A DNA stretch of 64,000 nt, taken from Candidatus Praeruminimicrobium purgamenti (GTDB lineage: Bacteria; Elusimicrobiota; Endomicrobiia; Endomicrobiales; Endomicrobiaceae). The translations under genes and the position numbers were made by a program. Shown one piece after another: positions 1,196 to 61,125 of this stretch. How positions within the stretch are numbered: the first letter of the stretch is position 1; every line of letters starts with the position of its first letter. The stretch spans positions 124,001 to 188,000 of the forward strand of contig JAHDQW010000001.1 of the NCBI GenBank assembly GCA_018433585.1, given 5' to 3'. The notes under the pieces are model-generated. The model worked only from the letters and a program-made list of their open reading frames with translations. It was not told the DNA's origin and did no database searches.

Positions 1196-1203
1196 TTTAT
1201 AGC

Positions 1204-1310
1204 GGCTTTAATATTTTGATTACACCTTTGAATTTTGCGGCCTTATGTACCGTTTCACTAATGTACACTACGGTCGCAAAATTCTTCGGTTCATCGGAAA
1301 TCTTAAAGCC
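1204..1310 (+). repeat. 107-nt imperfect hairpin element (copy 1)
   Basis: The 39-nt arms 1204-1242 and 1272-1310 are imperfect inverted repeats. The outer 8 bp (GGCTTTAA/TTAAAGCC) and an inner block (GAATTTTGCG/CGCAAAATTC) pair perfectly. The 29-nt middle holds a small apical stem, TGTAC (1246-1250) with GTACA (1263-1267). A second element at 49748-49857 has the same architecture and a related apical sequence. The element begins 8 nt after the dnaK stop and ends 15 nt before the next ATG. It is not a canonical integron attC, since no RYYYAAC/GTTRRRY pair bounds it, and it has no T-run like a simple terminator. It may be a mobile-element end, a cassette site or a structured RNA. Confidence 0.7.
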
Positions 1311-1325
1311 TGAGAAAGACAAAAA

Positions 1326-1850
1326 ATGAAAAATATATTACAAATAATATTAGATAGTCTTTTACAAGTTTTTGAGAATAAAAAAAATAAAACAAGTGAA
1401 ATCAAAAAAAGAGAAGAAGATTTAAATAGAAAAATCGATAGAGCAACAAATTATTCTATAGAACTTGATAAAAGTATTATTAATTTATTAATACTTATTT
1501 TCATTGCAGGAATTTTTGGAATTGAACATTTCAAAATACAGATAACTTCTAGTATACATTGCTTGTTTATATGTTGGTTTTTAACTTTATTATTTATATT
1601 TTTAAGTATGTTTTTTGCAAAATGGCAGAAACAAAAAAATATTGATATTCAGAATAAATATATTTGTTGGTGTAATGATATTAATAAAGTTACTCAAAAA
1701 GAATATAATGATGATGAAAAAGAACAGAATATTATAATGGAACTTGGTAAATACATTGAAATTTTTTCTGCTTTAAGTTATATAGGATTTTTGATAACAG
1801 GTTTTTTCTTTATGCATATTTTTTTATTAAATATAAATAGTATTAAGTAG
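1326..1850 (+). CDS. Hypothetical multi-pass membrane protein (orphan cargo)
   Basis: 174 residues of no family I recognise. Residues 1-45 are charged and lysine-rich, probably helical or coiled-coil. Hydrophobic segments lie near residues 48-66, 78-98 and 148-170, with a polar acidic stretch between the second and third, so two or three membrane spans are likely. Codon use is strongly A/T-biased compared with dnaK and dnaJ on either side. It starts 15 nt after the hairpin at 1204-1310 with a GAGAAAG ribosome site, and a small hydrophilic gene follows after 15 nt. It breaks the usual dnaK-dnaJ pairing, which suggests insertion. A two-gene immunity or defence-type unit is possible but unproven. 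Confidence 0.6.
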   Translation: MKNILQIILDSLLQVFENKKNKTSEIKKREEDLNRKIDRATNYSIELDKSIINLLILIFIAGIFGIEHFKIQITSSIHCLFICWFLTLLFIFLSMFFAKWQKQKNIDIQNKYICWCNDINKVTQKEYNDDEKEQNIIMELGKYIEIFSALSYIGFLITGFFFMHIFLLNINSIK

Positions 1851-1865
1851 TAAAAGGGGTAGACT

Positions 1866-2063
1866 ATGGCAAATGATGAACAAAAGAATCAAACGGGAAA
1901 TCAGACTGGAACAAAACCACAAGGACAAAAACCAACATCACAACCACAGGTCCCTGCTTGTGATGAATCAATTTATAACAATAATAAAGACATAATAGGA
2001 CAAATTAAAAAAGGCAGTATAAATGAGGGACAGGTTGCAAGACCAAATAAAGATAACAAATAA
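1866..2063 (+). CDS. Small hydrophilic Gln/Pro-rich protein (orphan cargo)
   Basis: 65 residues, unrecognised. The first half is low-complexity, rich in Q, P, T and G with no hydrophobic segment; the second half (CDESIYNNNKDIIGQIKKGS region) looks more like a short ordered motif. A good ribosome site (AAGGGG, 1854-1859) precedes the ATG by 6 nt, which supports real translation. It is probably co-transcribed with the membrane protein 15 nt upstream, and an AT-rich hairpin with T-run overlaps its stop. Function unknown; a partner or regulator of the upstream membrane protein is the only contextual hint. Confidence 0.5.
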   Translation: MANDEQKNQTGNQTGTKPQGQKPTSQPQVPACDESIYNNNKDIIGQIKKGSINEGQVARPNKDNK

Positions 2064-2095: not shown

Positions 2096-2147
2096 GTTGT
2101 TTTTTAAGATATTAAGATTTTGGGTGAGATGAAGTATTTAAAAAGTG

Positions 2148-4230: not shown

Positions 4231-5185
4231 TTTTTACGATAAAAGATTTTAATATCTTCCTTAACGTTAAAAACAACAGATAGCATGGAAATAACGTAAA
4301 AAATTGAATGTAAAAGATATAATCTGTTTTGAAAAATTTTATAAAAGCGTAAAAATTGTCTTTTTTGTAAAAATTGTCTTTTTTGTATGCAGAATATATA
4401 TATATAGGCGCAAGTATTTTAAAAAAAGTATTTCTTCTTTCTTGTTGTACGGTAGTTCCTTTTATGAATCCTTTTTTCAAATAATCTTCATAGACGGACA
4501 TATATTTGTTTCCGTATACATTAAATAAATCTACGCTGCCTTTTTTGTTTATCGGGAGAAGATTGTAAAATTTCCCCGAGTATAAAAATGCCTTCTTGTT
4601 TTGCATGAATAATCTTAAAGACCAGTCAACCTGCATAAACTGTGTGTCTATATATTTTTCTTTGTTTTCCAATTTTTCAAAATCTTTTTTCCAACATCCG
4701 AAATTTGATATCCACGTCATATCTCCCGAAAGAATATTAACGAAATTATCCGGATCTTTAATTATAACGGTTTTTTTATTATTTCTGTTTTTACCGAATC
4801 TTGTCATATGGAAAAATAAAGTTTCTTTTTCAGTTTTATGTTTTTCAATGGTCTTCAGCATAAATTCAAGAGTCTCTCTTGTAAAAGTAATGCTGTCATT
4901 GCTTAATTTTAGATATTCTCCCGAACCTAAAGACATAACATCTATAAAATTTTTGTCGGCGATTTTTGTTTGTTCATGCTGTTTAAAATATTTTATATTT
5001 GGGAATCTTTCCGCCCATTGTACGCATGTTATTTCAGTATTATCTGTAGAACAGTTATCTGATATTACAATTTCTACGGCATTTCCGAAATCAGGGCTGT
5101 TAACTATTGATTGAATAGCCTGATTAAGATAATCTGCTCTGTTGTAAGTAGGTATGCATATTGATAATAATATTTCGCTGCTCAT
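4214..5185 (-). CDS. Family 2 glycosyltransferase (paralogue of the one at 16745-17743)
   Basis: 323 residues. The N-terminal GT-A domain has LLSICIPTYNRADYLNQ, VEIVISDNCSTDNTE and YLKLSND motifs. A hydrophobic C-terminal segment near residues 285-310 suggests membrane association. It is clearly paralogous over most of its length to the glycosyltransferase at 16745-17743 in the same operon: the openings share LLSICIPTYNRA, ISDNCSTDNTEI and F.D...LG.GEYLKL. Last gene of the reverse-strand polysaccharide operon, starting 1 nt from its upstream neighbour. An in-frame 18-bp duplication near the C-terminus repeats NFYKKD. Probably adds a residue to the O-unit; donor unknown. Confidence 0.85.
   Translation of the reverse strand: MSSEILLSICIPTYNRADYLNQAIQSIVNSPDFGNAVEIVISDNCSTDNTEITCVQWAERFPNIKYFKQHEQTKIADKNFIDVMSLGSGEYLKLSNDSITFTRETLEFMLKTIEKHKTEKETLFFHMTRFGKNRNNKKTVIIKDPDNFVNILSGDMTWISNFGCWKKDFEKLENKEKYIDTQFMQVDWSLRLFMQNKKAFLYSGKFYNLLPINKKGSVDLFNVYGNKYMSVYEDYLKKGFIKGTTVQQERRNTFFKILAPIYIYSAYKKDNFYKKDNFYAFIKFFKTDYIFYIQFFTLFPCYLLFLTLRKILKSFIVKTNICF
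4349..4384. repeat. 18-bp perfect tandem duplication inside a glycosyltransferase gene
   Basis: GTAAAAATTGTCTTTTTT occurs at 4349-4366 and again at 4367-4384 with no mismatch. On the reverse strand it adds six codons (repeat of NFYKKD) without shifting the frame of the glycosyltransferase at 4214-5185. Probably a recent replication-slippage event. Confidence 0.95.
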
Positions 5186-6279
5186 TATTTTATTTTGAAC
5201 TCTCTGTGAAAAATATTCAGCAGAATATTTTGGTTTCCTATATGTTTTTTTGCTTTCATAAAATTAAAATCAATAACAATATAATCATTTTCAATATATT
5301 TTTTTATTTTAAATTTAATTTTAAACAATAACATTCTTATGACAAAATAATCATTTTCAGTACAAGCACCTATAAAATGTCTTCTTAATAAAGAAAAAAA
5401 TAATTTTAATTTGCTTGCCGTATCCAATGGAGATATTACGTCTATTATTTGAAACCAATTTTTCTTTTCAAAATATAAAGCATGCATGTTTTTGCAAAAT
5501 TTAGAAAAATTACCGTGTATAAAATTTATTGCGCATAACATAGTTTTATGTTTTATTTTTTTATTTTGTATCATTGAACATACGTTTGCATATCCTGTTA
5601 TCCATGTCATTGTTCTGGTTCTTTGGCAAAGCTCGTCAGATTGTACGCCTCGTATATAACTGCAATCAGTATTTTTTAAATTCATACCGTTATTTACAAC
5701 AGCTTTATTTACGACATATATTTCTTTATTTTTGTTTATAAAAGGAATAATAGGGAACAGATGTGGGAATAAAGTGAATATATTATCAAAAGAATTTCTT
5801 ATATTAGTATCATTGTAAACGGATGTTTTTATTATGATGGCCGGTACAAAAGTCAATTGCAGCAACTGGTATTCTGTTTGATTCTTCTTTGATGTTGGAA
5901 CGGCGTATCTGGCTGCGCAGATAACTTCTTCGTTGTTTTCAATTGCAGTTTCTATTTCATTCCAATTAGACCAGTCATAGATATCATCATCACAAATTAT
6001 CCATAAATATTCTTTGTCGGCGATTTCCATTGCTTTTGCTATATTTCCTGATATTCCCAAATTATATTTGTTTTTAGAGTATTTAATATTTGAATGAGAG
6101 CTTATTAACTGGTCGATATAATTTTTTGTATTATCCGTAGAATTATTATCCAAAACCAAAATGTCAAAATTTTTAACCGGCGAAGCATCAGCTAAAATAA
6201 ATTGTTCAAAAGTTTTTTTTACATGTTGGAATCTGTTATATGTAATTAATATTATTTGTAACTTATCTTTTATAGACAT
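5185..6279 (-). CDS. Family 2 glycosyltransferase
   Basis: 364 residues. The GT-A catalytic half shows LQIILITYNRFQHV, FDILVLDNNSTDNTK, YNLGISGNIAKAM and the acidic ICDDDIYDW motif (the DxD-like nucleotide/metal site near residue 98). The C-terminal half is lysine-rich and unrecognised. Preceded by a strong AAAGGAAGG ribosome site 69 nt after the Wzx gene. Member of the reverse-strand polysaccharide operon, so a cytoplasmic-face O-unit assembly transferase is likely. Acceptor and donor are not predictable. Confidence 0.85.
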   Translation of the reverse strand: MSIKDKLQIILITYNRFQHVKKTFEQFILADASPVKNFDILVLDNNSTDNTKNYIDQLISSHSNIKYSKNKYNLGISGNIAKAMEIADKEYLWIICDDDIYDWSNWNEIETAIENNEEVICAARYAVPTSKKNQTEYQLLQLTFVPAIIIKTSVYNDTNIRNSFDNIFTLFPHLFPIIPFINKNKEIYVVNKAVVNNGMNLKNTDCSYIRGVQSDELCQRTRTMTWITGYANVCSMIQNKKIKHKTMLCAINFIHGNFSKFCKNMHALYFEKKNWFQIIDVISPLDTASKLKLFFSLLRRHFIGACTENDYFVIRMLLFKIKFKIKKYIENDYIVIDFNFMKAKKHIGNQNILLNIFHREFKIK

Positions 6280-7671: not shown

Positions 7672-9292
7672 TATGTTTAGTGTTATTTTTAATATGTTTT
7701 TCTGTTATATTATCTGTCATACATAGCAACAATCCAAAAGATATGTAAAAAGATAAGAATGCTTCTGTCGTAAGCATTGCGACCATTTGAGTTGTAACGA
7801 TTATTAATATACATATATATTTTCTGTTTTTTAATAGATAACGATTATTTATAATTTTATAAATAATATATACAACAGGTAATAAAAAGATAAATAACCC
7901 TGACAATCCCGATGATGAAAAGATATTGATGTAGTGATTGAGAGGCGGCAAATCTGTTTTAAAAATATTTTTGCCTGCCAGTAATATTTTTTCTTTAATA
8001 CTTGGCAGATTACATGCGTTTTGAGATAATTTTTTGATAACATATGAGTCTGTCATTTTTATTCCTACACCAAATATTGGGTGTTCCAATCCTACCTTTA
8101 AGTGAGCAGTCATTAATGCTAATCTTTCAGGGTTTGACCTTTCTTTTTTTGAATATATTGAAGAGATATTTTTGTTTATATAAAAGTTAACAGGTTGGAG
8201 TAAGTTTGTCTGATTATCTTTGAATTCGGGATTTGATATTTTTATTGAAGAGATATTTTTGTTTATATAAAAGTTAACAGGTTGGAGTAAGTTTGTCTGA
8301 TTATCTTTGAATTCGGGATTTGATATTTTTAATGTGATTAAACATAAAATAAAAGCAAAGAGAGAACATGAAATGATAATAAGCAAAGGTTTTATTATGT
8401 TTTTTCTGATAAATATAATAAAAGATATAAACAAAATTGTTTCAAACATGTACAATAATATTGCAATTCTCGACTGTGTCAAAAAAATCATATAAATAAA
8501 GAATCCGTAAATGAAGATATATAACGTTTTAATTTTGTTTGAAAGTAAATTAATAAAAACAAAAGGCAGGCAAAACGATGCAAATATCCCGAAAAAAGAC
8601 GGCTCTGTACAAAAAGAACGCAGTTGTGTTGTGCTCCATAGCATTGGCGGATACCAATAATTGTCGATTAATGGAGAATAAAGAAAAGAATTAATTTTGA
8701 TTAAGATATTTTTTGCAACAACAAAATCATTAAAATATAATATTTCAATGATAGAATATACTATAAAAAGATATAATAAAAACATTGCCGATTTTTTTAT
8801 TAATGAAAAACCTTCTTTCCAATTTTTATGAAAGAGATAATATATATAAAAAGATATTAAATATCCAATAAATATATTGTTTATCAAGATGTCTTTTAAA
8901 AATTTTACTATAACATAAAATTTTATACAAATATCAGAGTTTATTAATATATTGTGCGCCCTGCAAAAATCATTTAATAAAGTTAAATAATATATTTTGT
9001 TGATTAACAGCAAGTTCCAAGAATCATAATAAATCAATCCGAGTACAAATGTGATTAATTGGGAAAAAATAAAAATAAAAAAATATATTTTGTATTGGTT
9101 TTTTACAAATAAAGCATTATTGTTCTTGTAAGCATCATAAAGCCACAGAAGTATTCCGAATAATAAAAAATAAAAAGAAAGCCGCCTGTCTAAATAGAAG
9201 AATTTGGAAACTCTTGGTAAGTTAGTTACAGGTAAGGTTATAATTGCAAAAGATAATAGAAACTTTTGTATATTTTTAATTGTTTGTGTCAT
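7652..9292 (-). CDS. wzy: O-antigen polymerase Wzy (O-antigen ligase-like fold) with internal duplication
   Basis: 546-residue inner-membrane protein with roughly 11-13 hydrophobic segments. The large hydrophilic, probably periplasmic loop in the middle to C-terminal half carries RLALMTAHLKVGLEHPIFGVG, the signature of the Wzy_C/O-antigen polymerase-ligase family. It would polymerise flipped O-units in the periplasm. It is longer than many Wzy proteins partly because an exact 29-codon tandem duplication (8157-8330) repeats SNPEFKDNQ...NKNISS within the loop. Preceded by an AAGGAAG ribosome site, 30 nt after the RfbE-like gene. A WaaL-type ligase is the alternative, but the position beside wzx favours Wzy. 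Confidence 0.82.
   Translation of the reverse strand: MTQTIKNIQKFLLSFAIITLPVTNLPRVSKFFYLDRRLSFYFLLFGILLWLYDAYKNNNALFVKNQYKIYFFIFIFSQLITFVLGLIYYDSWNLLLINKIYYLTLLNDFCRAHNILINSDICIKFYVIVKFLKDILINNIFIGYLISFYIYYLFHKNWKEGFSLIKKSAMFLLYLFIVYSIIEILYFNDFVVAKNILIKINSFLYSPLIDNYWYPPMLWSTTQLRSFCTEPSFFGIFASFCLPFVFINLLSNKIKTLYIFIYGFFIYMIFLTQSRIAILLYMFETILFISFIIFIRKNIIKPLLIIISCSLFAFILCLITLKISNPEFKDNQTNLLQPVNFYINKNISSIKISNPEFKDNQTNLLQPVNFYINKNISSIYSKKERSNPERLALMTAHLKVGLEHPIFGVGIKMTDSYVIKKLSQNACNLPSIKEKILLAGKNIFKTDLPPLNHYINIFSSSGLSGLFIFLLPVVYIIYKIINNRYLLKNRKYICILIIVTTQMVAMLTTEAFLSFYISFGLLLCMTDNITEKHIKNNTKHNESNIF
8157..8330. repeat. Perfect 87-bp tandem duplication in wzy
   Basis: The unit 8157-8243 is repeated without any mismatch at 8244-8330. 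Because 87 is a multiple of three, the reading frame is preserved and 29 residues are duplicated (about residues 322-379 of Wzy). Perfect identity means the event is recent, under gene conversion, or under turnover by slippage. It falls in the predicted periplasmic loop just before the conserved H-P-I-F-G-V-G motif. Confidence 0.98.
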
Positions 9293-16744: not shown

Positions 16745-17743
16745 TTATATTCCTATTCTTACTTTAATTCTTCTTAAAAAGTTATAAAGTTTTATGTTTT
16801 TTGCAGATATTTTTCTTGCTAAGAAAACAAAAGTATAAATGATAAAATAAGGAAGTATAAGAGATAAAGCAACATAAAAATACCAATCTCTTTTGTAATC
16901 TTTCAGATATTTAAATTTACTGTCATTATTGAAATTATAAGATTTTTGTTGCAAAACCGACATAATATACCTTGGTATTAAATAATTAAATAATAATTTT
17001 TTCTTTTCAATATTATAAGCTCGTTCAGAAAGCTCTTTTTTTTGTACAAAAAACTTTAAAATATTTAAATAATTTTGGGAGAATACTTTGAAAATATTAT
17101 ATCCTCCACTTTTATTTTTTAATTCAAAAATATCATACAGTTCAAAAAAATTAATGATAGCTTTTTTTTGTGATACAATCTGGAAAGTCCAATCGACTTG
17201 CATTAGTTGTAAATCAATAAATCTAGTTTTTTGCTGTATTTTATTAAAATCTTTTTTCCAACATCCAAAAAGAGGTATCCACATGGTCCGAAAAGATACT
17301 TCTCTGAGAAACGAATCAGATGTGTCGCATATCATATAAGTGTTTATATGCTTTTTATAATTGTTATAAAAAAACAAAGGATTTTTCATATTAGCATTAT
17401 CTTTTATAACATTTAACATGTATTGAACTGTTTCCCTTCTAAAAAGGACGGTGTCATTATTTAATTTTAAATATTCTCCAGTTCCTAAAGTAAGTGCATC
17501 TATAAAGTTTTGATCGGCAATATTTGTAGGTTTTATTTGTTTATAATATTTAATATTTTTATACTTGTTTATCCATTTTTTGCAAATAATTTCAGTGTTA
17601 TCAGTAGAACAATTATCAGATATAATAATTTCAACTTGATCTCCAAAACCGTTGCTGTCAACAATTGATTGGATTGTTTGATTTAAATATTGTGCCCTAT
17701 TGTATGTAGGTATGCAAATGCTTAATAGTATGGTGTTATTCAT
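16745..17743 (-). CDS. Family 2 glycosyltransferase (paralogue of the one at 4214-5185)
   Basis: 332 residues. N-terminal GT-A domain with LLSICIPTYNRAQYLNQ, VEIIISDNCSTDNTEI and TGEYLKLNNDTVLF, then an AT-rich, hydrophobic C-terminal region (residues about 285-310) that may anchor it at the membrane. Strongly similar along its length to the transferase at 4214-5185 at the other end of the operon, so the two arose by duplication. It sits between rfbG and rfbH, inside the nucleotide-sugar genes, which makes it a candidate transferase for the dideoxysugar itself. A 66-nt gap precedes it, one of the few spaces in the operon. Confidence 0.85.
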   Translation of the reverse strand: MNNTILLSICIPTYNRAQYLNQTIQSIVDSNGFGDQVEIIISDNCSTDNTEIICKKWINKYKNIKYYKQIKPTNIADQNFIDALTLGTGEYLKLNNDTVLFRRETVQYMLNVIKDNANMKNPLFFYNNYKKHINTYMICDTSDSFLREVSFRTMWIPLFGCWKKDFNKIQQKTRFIDLQLMQVDWTFQIVSQKKAIINFFELYDIFELKNKSGGYNIFKVFSQNYLNILKFFVQKKELSERAYNIEKKKLLFNYLIPRYIMSVLQQKSYNFNNDSKFKYLKDYKRDWYFYVALSLILPYFIIYTFVFLARKISAKNIKLYNFLRRIKVRIGI

Positions 17744-17809
17744 TAATATCTATATCCATTATAAACTTATATTTGAAGTTATATGTATTTTTTGACAACC
17801 TGATTTTAA

Positions 17810-47562: not shown

Positions 47563-48950
47563 GCATAAAATTTTATAATACGCTTACCAATAAAGTTGAA
47601 GATTTTACATCCATAGAAAAAAATAAAATTTCTATGTATATTTGCGGTGTCACTCCTTATGATGTCGTTCATTTGGGACATGCAAGGGCATATGTGACTT
47701 TTGATGTAATTAAAAGGCATTTTATAAGAAGCGGATATTCTGTAAACCATATACAGAATTTCACAGATGTTGATGATAAAATCATAAACAGATCAATTGA
47801 AAAACAAATTTCTCCGCTTGAACTTGCTAAAACTTACATAGACGATTATTTTGTCCAAATGAACAAATTAAATGTTTTAAAAGCAAATGAATATCCGCAG
47901 GTTACGTCTATGATTCCGCAAATTATTTCTTTTATAGAAAAGCTTGAAGAAAAAGGTTTTGCTTATAATGTTGACGGCGATGTCTATTTTTCCGTCGATA
48001 AATTTTCAGAATACGGAAAACTTTCAAAAAGAAAGCTGGAAGATATGAAAGTGGGCGCAAGGGTGGATGCTGACTCCAAGAAAAAAAATCCTTATGATTT
48101 TATACTTTGGAAAAAGACAAAAGAAAATGAGCCGCAGAGCGTGTCTTGGCCAAGCAGATGGGCTGCAGGAAGACCGGGCTGGCATATAGAATGTTCTGTT
48201 ATGTCTACGTCTTTACTTGGTGATACGATCGATATCCACGGCGGCGGCCAGGATTTAATTTTCCCTCATCACGAAAATGAAATAGCTCAGAGCGAAGCCT
48301 GTACGGGAAAGATTTTTGCAAAATACTGGATACACAACGGTTTTGTGACAGTCAATAAAGAAAAAATGTCAAAATCGCTGGGTAATTTTTTTACTTTGAA
48401 AGATATTTTTAATACATATGACCCTAGAGTTGTCAGATATTATCTTCTGACACAGCACTACAGAACTCCTTTGGATTTTTCAAATGACGGCCTTAATGCG
48501 GCGCAAAAAACTTTACAGGGACTTGACGAAGCGTATTCCAGGCTGCTTGCAATTGTTTCTGAAAGCGACGATAATTTAATAAATGAAGATTTAATAAAAA
48601 TACAAAAACAGGTAAAAGAAGCATTGGATGATGATTTTAATTTTGAAAAAGCATTATCTTATCTGCATGAATTAAAGAATTTAATTTTGAATAATCTTTC
48701 CTCTGATAAAACAGGTTATTTGAAACAGGCAAAGTGGCTTTTTGAGGATATATTTGAAGGTGATTTGGGAATAAGATTGATTAAAAATGAAATAAACGGA
48801 GAACTTTCAATATTGCTTGAAAAAAGAAACTCCGCCAGAAAAAACAAAAACTGGAAAGAGGCGGATTTATTCAGAGATAAATTGGCTGAACTCGGCTATA
48901 AGATTGTTGATAATAAAGACGGGACTTCGACATTAGTCAAGAAAATTTAA
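47559..48950 (+). CDS. cysS: Cysteinyl-tRNA synthetase
   Basis: 463-residue class I synthetase. [17 protein letters not shown] carries the HIGH-type motif with the zinc-ligand cysteine, WHIECSVMS and [14 protein letters not shown] supply the remaining zinc ligands, and [10 protein letters not shown] is the KMSKS loop. C-terminal DALR-type helical domain ends KDGTSTLV. Overlaps ispF by 4 nt. Confidence 0.98.
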
Positions 48951-49020
48951 ATTTTATAAACAGTATTGCGGTTATAAACAGCGGTTTACGCTTTGAAAAT
49001 AATAAGACTAAAGGGTATGT

Positions 49021-49746
49021 ATGGATAAAATATTCGGAAGAAATGCTGTGCTTGAAGCCATTAAATCTGAAACAAGAACGATTAATAAGATATTTATTTC
49101 AAAAACAGCGCACGGGAGCAGTATTTCTGAAATTATAAAACTTGCCAAAGCAAAAGGAATAATTATAAACAGTGTTCCTCCGGAAAAACTTGATAAATTT
49201 GAAGATACAAATACTCAAGGCGTCGTTGCCGAAGTTTCAACTACCGATTACGTTGAACTTCAAGATTTGATAAAAAGCGTCAAAGATAAAAAAAACGCAT
49301 TGCTTCTTCTTCTTGATTCAATAGAAGATCCGCATAATTTAGGCGCTATTATAAGAAACGCCGTTGCTTTCGGAGTGGACGGAGTTATAGTTCCTAAATG
49401 GCGTTCGGCAACTGTTAATGATACAGTTTCAAGAACTTCAGCCGGCGCAATAGAACATATAAAAATAGCAAGAGTTACAAATTCCTCGCAGGCTATACTG
49501 GAACTTAAAGAAAAAGGGTTCTGGGTCATAGGCGCAGAAAACGGCAACAAAAGCATACATGAAACAGATATCCCTTTTCCGGCTGTTTTAGTTGTAGGAA
49601 GCGAGGGATTCGGTCTTCACCAGAAAATAAAAGAAAAATGCGATGTTATAATCACTATACCGCAAAAAAATTCAATTTCTTCATTGAATGTGTCGTGCGC
49701 AAGCGCTGTTATACTTTACGAAATTTTCAGAAAGCAAAATATATAA
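49021..49746 (+). CDS. rlmB: 23S rRNA (guanosine-2'-O)-methyltransferase RlmB-type (SpoU/TrmH family)
   Basis: 241 residues. N-terminal substrate-binding domain with IFGRNAVLEAI, then the SPOUT methyltransferase fold with its three motifs: LLDSIEDPHNLGAIIRNA, VVGSEGFGLHQ and SSLNVSCASAVILYE. Modifies a guanosine in 23S rRNA (G2251 in E. coli). 70 nt after cysS; the synteny with yacL-ispDF-cysS supports the YacO/RlmB assignment. A hairpin element starts 2 nt after its stop. Confidence 0.93.
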   Translation: MDKIFGRNAVLEAIKSETRTINKIFISKTAHGSSISEIIKLAKAKGIIINSVPPEKLDKFEDTNTQGVVAEVSTTDYVELQDLIKSVKDKKNALLLLLDSIEDPHNLGAIIRNAVAFGVDGVIVPKWRSATVNDTVSRTSAGAIEHIKIARVTNSSQAILELKEKGFWVIGAENGNKSIHETDIPFPAVLVVGSEGFGLHQKIKEKCDVIITIPQKNSISSLNVSCASAVILYEIFRKQNI

Positions 49747-49747
49747 C

Positions 49748-49857
49748 GACCGCAATATTTTATCTGCAGTTTTGTAATTTTAAAGCTCATTTACCGCTTA
49801 CGCCTAATGTAAACTTTACTTTAAAATTACTTCACTTCGCACAAAATCTTGCTAGTC
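49748..49857 (+). repeat. 110-nt imperfect hairpin element (copy 2)
   Basis: Inner stem GTAATTTTAAAG (49774-49785) pairs perfectly with CTTTAAAATTAC (49819-49830). The apical stem is TTTAC (49790-49794) with GTAAA (49809-49813), around a loop CGCTTACGCCTAAT resembling the loop of copy 1 (CGTTTCACTAAT). An imperfect outer arm runs from GAC..GCAA (49748 on) to TTGC..AGTC (ending 49857). Compared with copy 1 the apical stem shows a compensatory change (TGTAC/GTACA against TTTAC/GTAAA), suggesting that the fold matters. Starts right after the rlmB stop and ends 16 nt before the orphan nuclease gene. Confidence 0.7.
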
Positions 49858-49873
49858 TTAATGGATTCGTTTT

Positions 49874-50725
49874 ATGCATTGGAAAAAATATGAAAAAGAA
49901 ATTTATAGTATTTGCAAATTCCATTTTCCAGATTCAAAACTGTACAAAAATAAAAAACTTATTGGAAGATATTCTCAAAAAGAAAGGCAAGTTGATATTT
50001 TAATAAAACAAAAAATAGATAAAAATGAAGTGTATACAGCTATAGATTGTAAAAATTATGCAAAAAAAATAGATATTAAATGTGTAGAATCTTTTATAGC
50101 AATGTTGGAAGATTTAAATGTAGATAAAGGGATTTTAATAACGAATATCGGTTATTCGAAAGCAGCACTCAAACGTGCTTACAATAATCCAAAACATTTA
50201 GAATTAGATATATGTAAAATGGAAAATTTTAAACATAAATTACAGGGGTTAATTGCTTTCCCATATTCAGGTTTAAATGGAGTTATGTTAATGGCACCAT
50301 TAGGTAATATTATTGATGCGAGAAGGACTGCATTTTCTGTTTGTACAATTTATCCAGAAGGATATAGTTCATTTGTGGAAGCAGCTAAAAAAGCCAAAGA
50401 GTGGGCATACGTTCAATTTTGGCATAAGGATTCAAAAGTTTCAAATATTACTGAATTATTAAAATATCAAAGAAAATATATAGAAGCAGAAAAAATTAGA
50501 TATATTGTAACTAATATATTGAGAAAAGATTCAACAAATAAAATAAGAATAGCTTTTTTAAAAAAACAAAAAGTTGTTGAAGTTACAACTTTTATTGAAT
50601 TTAAAAAATTTATCTTTTTTTATGTATGGTTGTTAAAAGATGAATATAATTTAAAAAGAACAATTCGTAAGGCAGAAACAATAATTAAAACAACTATTCC
50701 AATTGGCATCAAAAAAGAAGTGTAG
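49874..50725 (+). CDS. Orphan restriction-endonuclease-like protein (Mrr-type PD-(D/E)xK candidate)
   Basis: 283 residues. The N-terminal half has a likely PD-(D/E)xK core: RQVDILIKQ, a spacer, then YTAIDCKNY and a helix with KCVESFIAMLEDL, followed by KGILITNIGYSKAALKRA, which is the Mrr_cat/RE-like order (D...D-x-K with a hydrophobic strand and a helix). The C-terminal 150 residues are unrecognised. Codon use is far more A/T-rich than in rlmB and lysA on either side. Alone between a hairpin element and the lysA promoter, with no methyltransferase beside it, so it could be a modification-dependent nuclease or another defence protein. Catalysis is not proven. Confidence 0.6.
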   Translation: MHWKKYEKEIYSICKFHFPDSKLYKNKKLIGRYSQKERQVDILIKQKIDKNEVYTAIDCKNYAKKIDIKCVESFIAMLEDLNVDKGILITNIGYSKAALKRAYNNPKHLELDICKMENFKHKLQGLIAFPYSGLNGVMLMAPLGNIIDARRTAFSVCTIYPEGYSSFVEAAKKAKEWAYVQFWHKDSKVSNITELLKYQRKYIEAEKIRYIVTNILRKDSTNKIRIAFLKKQKVVEVTTFIEFKKFIFFYVWLLKDEYNLKRTIRKAETIIKTTIPIGIKKEV

Positions 50726-50832
50726 CTCATTTTTCAGACTTTAAGGCTTTGGTATGAATTTGAGTGGAAAATAAAGTTAATATATAAATTATTAAAAACT
50801 TATTAAAGGTGTGTTAACATATGGATTCTAAT

Positions 50833-50861
50833 TTGACACATATGTATCATTTTGATATTAT
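50833..50861 (+). promoter_or_regulatory. Promoter of the lysA-dap operon
   Basis: TTGACA (50833-50838), 17-bp spacer, TATTAT (50856-50861), close to consensus. A small inverted repeat, ACATATG and CATATGT, flanks and overlaps the -35 and might be an operator. No lysine-riboswitch (L-box) landmarks are evident in the short leader. Confidence 0.8.
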
Positions 50862-50888
50862 TTTAAGACGATATATACTGGGGGTAAG

Positions 50889-52133
50889 ATGGGAATCAAG
50901 TATGTGAATAATGAGTTGTATGTGGAAGGTTTGGCTGTATCTAAATTGGCAAAAAAGTATGGAACGCCTATATATATATACTCCAAGAATACGTTAGAAT
51001 CAAATTTTCATGCTTATAAAAAGGGTTTTGGCGATATTGACAGTATTATTTGTTATGCGGCAAAAGCAAATCCGAATCAAAATATTATGACAATTCTTGC
51101 AAAACTCGGGTCAGGAGCAGACATAGTATCAGGCGGAGAGCTCTACAGATCTTTACTTGCAGGAATAAAACCCGATAAAATTGTCTATTCTGGGGTCGGT
51201 AAGACGGCTGAAGAAATAGAATATGCGCTGAAAAGCAATATTTTAATGTTTAACGTTGAATCTTTTGAAGAGCTTGAACAGATAAATTTAATTGCAAAAA
51301 GACTTCATAAAAAGGCCAGAATATCTTTCAGAGTAAATCCTGACGTTGACCCTCACACTCATAAGCATATTACTACCGGGAAACACGGAAGTAAATTCGG
51401 CATAAGATATGAAGATGCGTTGGGTATGTATATTGCGGCGTCAAAAATGAAGAATATAAAAATAGTCGGTGTTGACAGTCATATAGGTTCTCAAATTTTG
51501 GAAGTATCGCCGTTTAAGCAGGCGGCTTTAAAACTTTCTAAATTGATAGATAATTTGGAAAAAGCAAAAATCTTTATAAAATATATAGATATCGGCGGCG
51601 GACTGGGTATAAAATATCAGAAGTCAGAAGTGCCTCCTTCTCCTGAAGATTTGAAAAAGGCCGTAATGTCGGTATATTCGAAATATAAAGATAAAACTAT
51701 TATTGTAGAGCCGGGAAGATCGATAGTTGCAAATGCCGGTATAATGGTAGGAAAAATTTTGTACAGGAAAGTTTCAGGCGACAAGAAATTTATTATAGTC
51801 GATATAGGTATGAACGATTTAATAAGACCTACGCTGTATGATGCGTATCATAACATTATTCCTGTAAGAAAAACTTCTAAAAAACCTGTAATTGTTGATA
51901 TTGTCGGTCCTATTTGCGAAACAGGCGACTTTATTGCAAAAGACAGAAAGTTTCCTATGCTTTTCCGCGGAGAATTGATAGCGGTCGAATGTATCGGAGC
52001 GTACGGCTCGGCAATGGCGTCGCAGTATAATTCAAGGCTCAGAGCGCAGGGGATTGTTATTGACGGTAAAAAGGTAACAGGCATAAGAAAAAGAGAAGAA
52101 TTGAAAGATTTGATAGCAAAAGAAATTAATTAA
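50889..52133 (+). CDS. lysA: Diaminopimelate decarboxylase
   Basis: 414-residue PLP enzyme, fold III, converting meso-DAP to L-lysine. K59 in CYAAKANPN is the PLP lysine; SGGELYRSL, HIGSQI, GGGLGIKY, EPGRS and the C-terminal CESGDF-equivalent CETGDFIAKD with YGSAMAS complete the active site. First gene of a five-gene DAP/lysine operon behind a near-consensus promoter. A GGGGGTAAG ribosome site precedes the ATG. Confidence 0.97.
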   Translation: MGIKYVNNELYVEGLAVSKLAKKYGTPIYIYSKNTLESNFHAYKKGFGDIDSIICYAAKANPNQNIMTILAKLGSGADIVSGGELYRSLLAGIKPDKIVYSGVGKTAEEIEYALKSNILMFNVESFEELEQINLIAKRLHKKARISFRVNPDVDPHTHKHITTGKHGSKFGIRYEDALGMYIAASKMKNIKIVGVDSHIGSQILEVSPFKQAALKLSKLIDNLEKAKIFIKYIDIGGGLGIKYQKSEVPPSPEDLKKAVMSVYSKYKDKTIIVEPGRSIVANAGIMVGKILYRKVSGDKKFIIVDIGMNDLIRPTLYDAYHNIIPVRKTSKKPVIVDIVGPICETGDFIAKDRKFPMLFRGELIAVECIGAYGSAMASQYNSRLRAQGIVIDGKKVTGIRKREELKDLIAKEIN

Positions 52134-60270: not shown

Positions 60271-61052
60271 CTATAGATATAGGCAATACAAATATTACGC
60301 TTGGTTTATTTAAATTCAAAAAAAATATCGTTGAAAAAAATCCGGTAAAAATTTGGAGAATTGCCACTTCAAAAAAGAAGACGGTTGACGAATATGCGAC
60401 CGTCATTCTTGATATTTTCCGGTATTCGGGAATAGATGAAACAAAATTGAAAGTAATTGCCGTTGCCAGCGTGGTTCCTTCTCTGGATAATGTTTTTTTG
60501 GAATTAACAGATTTATATTTTCATAAAAAGGCTTTTTTTGTAACGACTAAACAATCCGGAGGATTAAAAGTGTCTTACGGAAATCCTGAAGAAGTCGGGG
60601 CTGACAGAATAGCCGATGCGGTTGCTGTTTATAAAATGTACGGAGGTCCTGCTATCGTTATTGACTTTGGTACGGCTACGACATTTGACTGTATAGATTC
60701 AAAAGGGAATTATTTGGGAGGAGCAATAGCTCCGGGCCCTGCAATATCGGCTGAATCTTTGACCCAGAAAACTGCAAAACTTCCGTCTGTAAATATTAAA
60801 CTTCCTGAAAATGTTATAGGAAGATCGACAGTGGAATGCATCCAGTCAGGCTTGTACTATGGTTATATAGGCCTTGTAAAAGAAATTTTATTAAGGCTGA
60901 AAAACAAAATGCAGCCGGGCGTTAAGATAATTGCGACAGGCGGACTTGCCAATCTTATATCTAAAGAAATAAAAGAAATAAAAAATATTATTCCTGAACT
61001 TACTTTGGAGGGGATAAGAATTATCTGGCAGAAGGAAAACGGCGGAAAATAA
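60261..61052 (+). CDS. coaX: Type III pantothenate kinase (CoaX)
   Basis: 263 residues; first step of coenzyme A synthesis. LAIDIGNTNITLGLF is the phosphate-binding ASKHA motif, YGNPEEVGADRIADAVA the conserved pantothenate-site block, IDFGTATTFDCID and GGAIAPGPAIS complete the ATPase core. Type III enzymes are not inhibited by CoA and need a monovalent cation. Overlaps fumarase beta by 10 nt. Its last codons and stop are part of a 37-bp direct repeat. Confidence 0.96.
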   Translation: MFLAIDIGNTNITLGLFKFKKNIVEKNPVKIWRIATSKKKTVDEYATVILDIFRYSGIDETKLKVIAVASVVPSLDNVFLELTDLYFHKKAFFVTTKQSGGLKVSYGNPEEVGADRIADAVAVYKMYGGPAIVIDFGTATTFDCIDSKGNYLGGAIAPGPAISAESLTQKTAKLPSVNIKLPENVIGRSTVECIQSGLYYGYIGLVKEILLRLKNKMQPGVKIIATGGLANLISKEIKEIKNIIPELTLEGIRIIWQKENGGK

Positions 61053-61125
61053 TATATCGGAGACGCCAGCCGATTTTGATGCAATGCGGGCAGAAGGAAA
61101 ACGGCGGAAAATAATATATCGGAGA
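61027..61125. repeat. 37-bp direct repeat across the coaX stop
   Basis: The same 37 bp (beginning GGCAGAAGGAAAACGGCGGA) occur at 61027-61063 and 61089-61125, 62 bp apart. The first copy holds the coaX C-terminal codons and stop; the second is noncoding and ends in the GGAGAG ribosome site of the next gene. The spacer is 25 bp. Looks like a recent local duplication that recreated the leader. Confidence 0.95.

Follow-up and report, generated by a model that had tools for sequence, protein, structure and literature searches.

What occupies the space between rlmB and lysA in this genome, and how did it get there? In the 64-kb stretch of DNA analysed here (the window) the two genes are separated by a palindromic hairpin and an open reading frame (ORF) for a 283-aa protein. 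The original prediction regarded the pair as a hairpin-headed cassette carrying an Mrr-like nuclease, the second of its kind after one at dnaK. Endomicrobia serve as models of how free-living bacteria become endosymbionts, and their genome rearrangements have been connected with restriction systems. If restriction genes enter at sites that share a repeated DNA fold, that fold would offer both a physical handle on such slots and a computable map of them. Table 1 lists the features of the window discussed below.

Table 1. Features at the rlmB-lysA and dnaK-dnaJ loci (window coordinates).
Feature	Position	Strand	Basis
Hairpin copy 1	1199-1314	+	Covariance model R1 match, 109.9 bits; 3 nt past dnaK stop; different sequence subfamily from copy 2
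Cargo of copy 1: 174-aa orphan (19.6% GC) and 65-aa ORF	1326-2063	+	ORFs, GC
Remnant of a second hairpin (3' arm, inverted orientation) before dnaJ	2104-2146	-	blastn match to 3' arm
Mosaic stretch: cysS 3' end and rlmB (49021-49746 with stop)	48841-49743	+	Largely Proruminimicrobium-like ancestry by informative sites
Palindromic hairpin copy 2 (first to last base pair)	49748-49857	+	Covariance model R1 match 49743-49860, 127.9 bits
Core stem 5' arm GTAATTTTAAAG	49774-49785	+	Pairs with 49819-49830; helix 3 of consensus
Apical stem TTTAC	49790-49794	+	Pairs with GTAAA 49809-49813; helix 4
283-aa Mrr-type nuclease cargo, 24.9% GC	49874-50725	+	Pfam Mrr_cat above cut-off
Unmatched DNA between cargo and right junction	50726-50832	.	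No convincing homology to congener or other loci
Right junction at lysA promoter -35 box, then lysA (50889-52133)	50833-52133	+	Homology to congener (G001) resumes at 50833

The hairpin family and its fold

The rlmB stop codon, TAA, lies at 49744-49746, and the 5' end of hairpin copy 2 is 1 nt beyond it. The 283-aa ORF starts 16 nt past the hairpin. Folded as single-stranded DNA, copy 2 reaches -14.3 kcal/mol (z = -3.5), and none of 200 shuffled sequences was equally stable. Across five aligned copies, compensatory changes are found at 16 of 36 pairs. The coordinates, the fold and the further copies in the genome all confirm that a real hairpin sits between rlmB and the ORF.

This hairpin is a member of a dispersed family of DNA palindromes, about 115 nt long, that is found mainly in Endomicrobiaceae. 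Four more copies were identified by blastn in the same genome (E values from 1e-12 to 2e-25). The original prediction had suggested a covariance-model search; a model built from five copies identified 11 distinct loci in this genome (G000), including the dnaK copy. Eight copies were detected in the congener (G001). Two genomes of one sister genus, Ca. Proruminimicrobium quisquiliarum (G007) and Endomicrobiaceae bacterium STB_19 (G017), contain 38 and 47 copies, and two Ruminimicrobiellum genomes, Ca. R. bubulum (G010) and Ca. R. ovillum (G019), contain 53 and 69. Across the three genera there are about 8-70 copies per genome. The model found no copies in many other Endomicrobiaceae genomes, G011 and G023 included. 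In a phylum-wide sample there were matches in 37 of 295 genomes, with strong matches confined to Endomicrobiaceae. The exact apical pattern was matched by 21 stretches in 84,980 species genomes, all of them titled Elusimicrobia/Elusimicrobium, Endomicrobia(ceae), Ruminimicrobiellum or Proruminimicrobium. One subfamily, with the outer stem GAAACAAATCAACATTAAT, is common to three genomes (loci L057, L123, L152 and L141); at L057 such a hairpin lies just past a putative tRNA gene, beside a pilin gene.

Pairing was analysed in 86 aligned copies. The figures are somewhat flattered by an alignment that was itself fitted to the structure: standard pairs account for 91.5% of cells, and 560 cells are changed on both sides, compared with 164 in shuffles and 73-112 in slid controls. 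Compensation is present at 32 of the 36 pairs. The excess over shuffles upholds the proposal that structure rather than sequence is conserved. In helix 3, 95% of cells are paired and double changes occur at 12 of 12 pairs. In helix 4, the apical stem, 99.8% of cells are paired, with TTTAC/GTAAA and TGTAC/GTACA types. Covariation between these types, first noted from the two copies in the window, holds for the family, one pair being GC 53 times and UA 29 times. The likeness of the loops is real for the two window copies but does not extend across the family, where loop length and sequence vary.

A TTT/TTC internal loop and individual bases close to the apex remain unpaired. These positions are mostly 78-100% conserved while the surrounding stems are rewritten. 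Could the compensatory pairs be functionless, produced only by template-switch copying errors within the palindrome during replication? Such errors would leave equal numbers of G-U and A-C intermediates, as seen: helices 3 and 4 contain 13 G-U and 12 A-C combinations among 1438 cells. However, template switching would also remove the internal loops, which are largely kept as mismatches in the 86 copies. Hence, template switching alone is disfavoured, and we consider it scarcely credible.

The same counts bear on the molecule that folds. In a structural RNA, G-U would be expected to outnumber A-C, since A-C disrupts pairing; the lack of a G-U excess therefore suggests that pairing is kept as DNA. 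From these alignments, we infer that the hairpin is a fold recognised as DNA. It is very unlikely, in our view, that the hairpins are structured RNA elements or transcription terminators in 3' untranslated regions, even though many copies lie directly past stop codons in the sense orientation. Besides the balance of G-U and A-C in the core stems, there is no U-run terminator on the + strand, and some copies face gene starts in the opposite orientation. An Rfam scan of the window found RNase P only, with no match at the hairpin. The combination of full compensation, no G-U excess and conserved mismatches is an unusual signature by which folded DNA can be told from folded RNA, and it could be applied in other cases.

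Gene-end polarity and the contents of the 3' side

We compared the two ends of the hairpin. Considering this genome together with G001, G007 and G017, the 5' end is no more than 12 nt from a codirectional stop codon in 42 of 57 cases; a stop is equally near the 3' end in 1 of 32. With orthologous copies removed the counts are 27/38 and 1/18 (p = 6e-6). For Ruminimicrobiellum, 27 of 29 hairpin 5' ends have a gene end (start or stop) within 30 nt, compared with 2 of 30 3' ends. Thus, the 5' end directly adjoins a core gene, usually at its stop codon, and the 3' side faces variable DNA, in which a cargo ORF can start 8-26 nt past the hairpin. Copies at random places without cargo would have counted against the original prediction; cargo-less copies do occur in relatives, but placement is polarised to gene ends rather than random.

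The 283-aa protein on the 3' side at rlmB scores 38.5 bits with Pfam Mrr_cat, for which the cut-off is 21 (E = 1.4e-9). It contains D41 and D58-C-K60, in agreement with the PD-(D/E)xK-like core that had been proposed. Assignment of the cargo as an Mrr-type nuclease is supported by these sequence features. A single-sequence AlphaFold model of the protein has a pLDDT of 35.6, too low to be informative about the fold. A relative annotated 'restriction endonuclease' is encoded by a Sulfuricurvum plasmid and is 35% identical over 80% of the length. At E <= 1e-5, the nuclease was found in none of 76 other genomes of Endomicrobiaceae. In PADLOC, the only match was a weak one to type IV restriction (E = 0.036). 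The predicted nuclease may be an active defence enzyme.

Similar cargo is found beside other copies. The mean GC content is 29.0% for 3'-side ORFs and 36.3% for 5'-side ORFs (p = 4e-15). In this genome, GC is below 30% in 10 of 11 3'-side ORFs, compared with 23 of 171 control ORFs (p = 1e-7). At E <= 1e-8, 70 3'-side proteins matched 151 PADLOC families and 68 5'-side proteins matched 34; these totals count families, not proteins, and some matches are to generic helicases. Pfam identified a D12 (Dam-type) adenine methyltransferase and an Mrr nuclease after the thyX hairpin, an NYN protein after the rpsG hairpin and an AAA_5 ATPase at the pilin/tRNA site. Further 3'-side cargo includes an antitoxin with a Gp49-type partner and an HNH protein, and Cas3 adjoins a partial hairpin copy. 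The suggestion that defence genes are carried at these sites is therefore well founded for this genome, where the 3' sides are rich in them by both Pfam and PADLOC. Separately, two genera have the same HigBA-type toxin-antitoxin pair enclosed by two hairpins of like direction, although the locus differs (L054:6908-9072 and L134:3560-4886).

In the Ruminimicrobiellum genomes, many hairpins separate housekeeping genes and lack cargo, and GC does not differ significantly between the two sides (34.9 versus 33.3%, p = 0.10). Hence, the hairpin is not sufficient to attract cargo. In R. ovillum, hairpins are also interleaved with three paralogous small secreted proteins (L061:6233-8953).

Taken together, this is a new family of a known kind, the dispersed bacterial palindromes, and it is unusual in having a DNA-level fold with conserved mismatches. 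In at least two genera it also forms the fixed border of accessory-gene slots, and these slots seem to be where defence genes are exchanged.

Slot occupancy and ancestry at rlmB

At the rlmB locus, three species have common sequence up to the hairpin 3' end and diverge just beyond it. The hairpin of Ca. P. quisquiliarum is 96.5% identical and is followed by an ORF that looks HNH-like by eye; that of STB_19 is followed by other DNA. The congener has an empty site, with neither hairpin nor cargo, and lysA follows rlmB directly. Swapping is also seen at dnaK. Here, this genome and Ca. P. quisquiliarum have different hairpin subfamilies and unrelated cargo, which in the latter is a 148-aa ORF with a complete inverted hairpin before dnaJ. 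After acd, a 146-aa orphan starts about 10 nt past the hairpin in the congener; in G007 and G017 the hairpin has no cargo and leads straight to etfB.

These comparisons address the view, taken in the original prediction, that hairpin and downstream gene form a self-contained cassette, inserted as a whole by a recombinase specific for the folded hairpin. Several observations are as a cassette would predict: the short spacing between hairpin and cargo ORF, the divergence just past the hairpin at rlmB, the absence of both hairpin and cargo from the congener, and the HigBA-type pair beside hairpins in two genera. Conversely, the same hairpin occurs with different cargo (at rlmB, in two relatives) or with none (at acd, in two relatives). 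No matching right end was found, rlmB and hairpin have common ancestry (see below), and R. ovillum has only two tyrosine recombinases, the number expected for Xer. We consider such a cassette quite unlikely. The defence-rich 3' sides and the Mrr cargo survive from the original prediction, whereas the idea that hairpin and cargo travel as one defined unit finds no support as worded.

The ancestry of the locus was examined using informative sites. The cysS and lysA genes are each 87% identical to those of the congener, the closest among the genomes compared (lysA was compared with G001 only). Conversely, rlmB is 94% identical to that of G007 and 82% identical to that of G001. Informative sites in cysS divide between G007 and G001 as 44:93 at 48301-48840 and as 23:1 at 48841-48950; the equivalent ratios in rlmB are 17:21 at 49021-49200 and 111:21 at 49201-49743. 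The switch between G007 and G001 in cysS versus rlmB is significant (Fisher p = 2e-18). Both the hairpin and the 3' part of rlmB are thus of Proruminimicrobium-like origin. The crossovers fall inside coding sequence, which on the left side argues against a site-specific enzyme and for homologous recombination. Thus, the mosaic ancestry shown at this one locus points to import of the rlmB 3' part and hairpin into the slot by homologous recombination. The hairpin is better tied to the upstream gene than to the cargo, rlmB and hairpin having a single foreign ancestry. The Mrr gene may have arrived in the same event.

On the right, a sigma-70-like site, TTGACA-17-TATTAT, starts at the position where homology to the congener resumes. 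A target duplication around the cargo was rejected, since the 8-nt flanking repeat ATGGATTC is at chance level (9% of random pairs).

Our preferred reading, to which we give a probability of roughly 0.55, is that the hairpin is a dispersed palindrome with its 5' end against a core gene and an accessory-gene slot on its 3' side, and that at rlmB it was imported with the 3' part of the gene. Foreign, low-GC and often defence-related genes would repeatedly enter, leave and be exchanged on the 3' side. Here, the hairpin and the rlmB 3' part would have come from a Proruminimicrobium-like relative, via homologous recombination in cysS/rlmB. The right-hand join would be at the lysA promoter, and the putative Mrr-type nuclease would now occupy the slot. 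The folded DNA itself may aid gene capture or retention, for instance by serving as a site of breakage or protein binding. Alternatively, the hairpin could be a bystander, as spots past operon ends tolerate insertions anyway. A more specific proposal, which we think unlikely, is that a host protein reads the conserved mismatches of the extruded strand and promotes the joining of incoming DNA at the 3' edge. If true, this would be a scattered system for acquiring defence genes that uses neither an integron integrase nor a dedicated transposase.

Candidate mobilising enzymes and related systems

The hairpin might instead be a non-autonomous mobile repeat, similar to a MITE or REP and moved by a putative transposase, with foreign genes accumulating because gaps past core genes tolerate insertion. 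There are many divergent copies, with stacked and truncated copies beside full ones. Isolated 3' arms from further copies often lie behind a full one, which points to stacking or turnover. A hairpin can be decayed in one species and full in its sister species, the ends are often TA...TA, and there is no cargo excess in Ruminimicrobiellum. For a TA target-site duplication, no clean pair of empty and filled sites was found that involves the hairpin by itself. Set against this are the GC contrast between the two sides, with cargo on the 3' side, and the fold itself; in neutral relics, compensatory pairs and conserved mismatches would not be expected to persist side by side. Moreover, there were no matches to a Y1 transposase, as expected for REP/RAYT, in G000, G001, G007, G010, G017 or G019, and a DDE_3 transposase, as expected for an IS630-type MITE, was found in none of 14 genomes. 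A mobile repeat is possible but, to our minds, doubtful.

Other candidates were also rejected. The integron integrase TIGR02249 was above cut-off in none of the 16 Endomicrobiaceae genomes searched, and no hairpin of the family lies between cargo and lysA, so the cargo 3' end has no attC-like site. Integron integrases are present in other families of the order (L224/L225, in G026 and G027). A reverse-transcribed element would account for a repetitive 3' tail and truncated copies, yet RVT_1 is absent from the hairpin-rich G007 and G010. This genome has a reverse transcriptase domain in a 1271-aa frame at L177 (G000:C16:20076-20543), which is absent from the family relatives tested. A dedicated tyrosine recombinase was discounted on the R. 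ovillum count given above. A viral origin was dismissed, as viral contigs contained no match to the apical hairpin pattern and no relative of the nuclease. Thus, no enzyme whose occurrence follows that of the hairpins emerged from the searches for Y1, reverse transcriptase, integron integrase, tyrosine recombinase and DDE_3.

ERIC, RUP and Correia elements are small palindromic MITE-like repeats of other bacteria. Like the Endomicrobiaceae hairpin, they are imperfect, non-coding palindromes of about 100-130 nt, dispersed near genes, with TA at many ends. The hairpin differs in its gene-end polarity, its conserved mismatches within rewritten stems, its association with defence genes and the lack of DDE_3. 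REP/REPIN sequences with RAYT are likewise extragenic palindromes, often directly past stop codons; however, the hairpin is 3-4 times longer and Y1_Tnp is absent from hairpin-rich genomes. Integron attC sites also conserve structure over sequence, keep unpaired bases, lie past stop codons and have variable DNA at their 3' edge. Conversely, the apex is the most conserved part of the hairpin, the 16 family genomes searched have no integron integrase, and there are no arrays with a site for each cargo gene.

Restriction-modification systems reportedly act as mobile elements in Endomicrobium, with no transposon-like structure. That case concerns the same family and similarly ties restriction systems to rearrangements and insertions; the slots described here differ in having a structural mark, the hairpin. 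At defence hotspots, exchange occurs by homologous recombination in flanking core genes. The resemblance lies in core genes around variable defence content and in mosaic import. The difference is that here there are many single-slot sites with one repeated DNA fold.

A literature search for Elusimicrobia with integron and attC found nothing. In a 2024 article on Endomicrobiaceae genomes (PMC11257099), palindromes and repeats are mentioned only in passages on CRISPR and in references, and integrons are not mentioned. The article cites a 2016 paper on restriction-modification systems as mobile elements in Endomicrobium.

The window contains other repeats. There is a perfect 87-bp tandem duplication at 8156-8329, and two identical 37-nt copies lie 62 nt apart at 61027-61125. 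In the gene cluster after dnaJ, the segments 4617-5187 and 17184-17745, 12.56 kb apart, are 71-73% identical.
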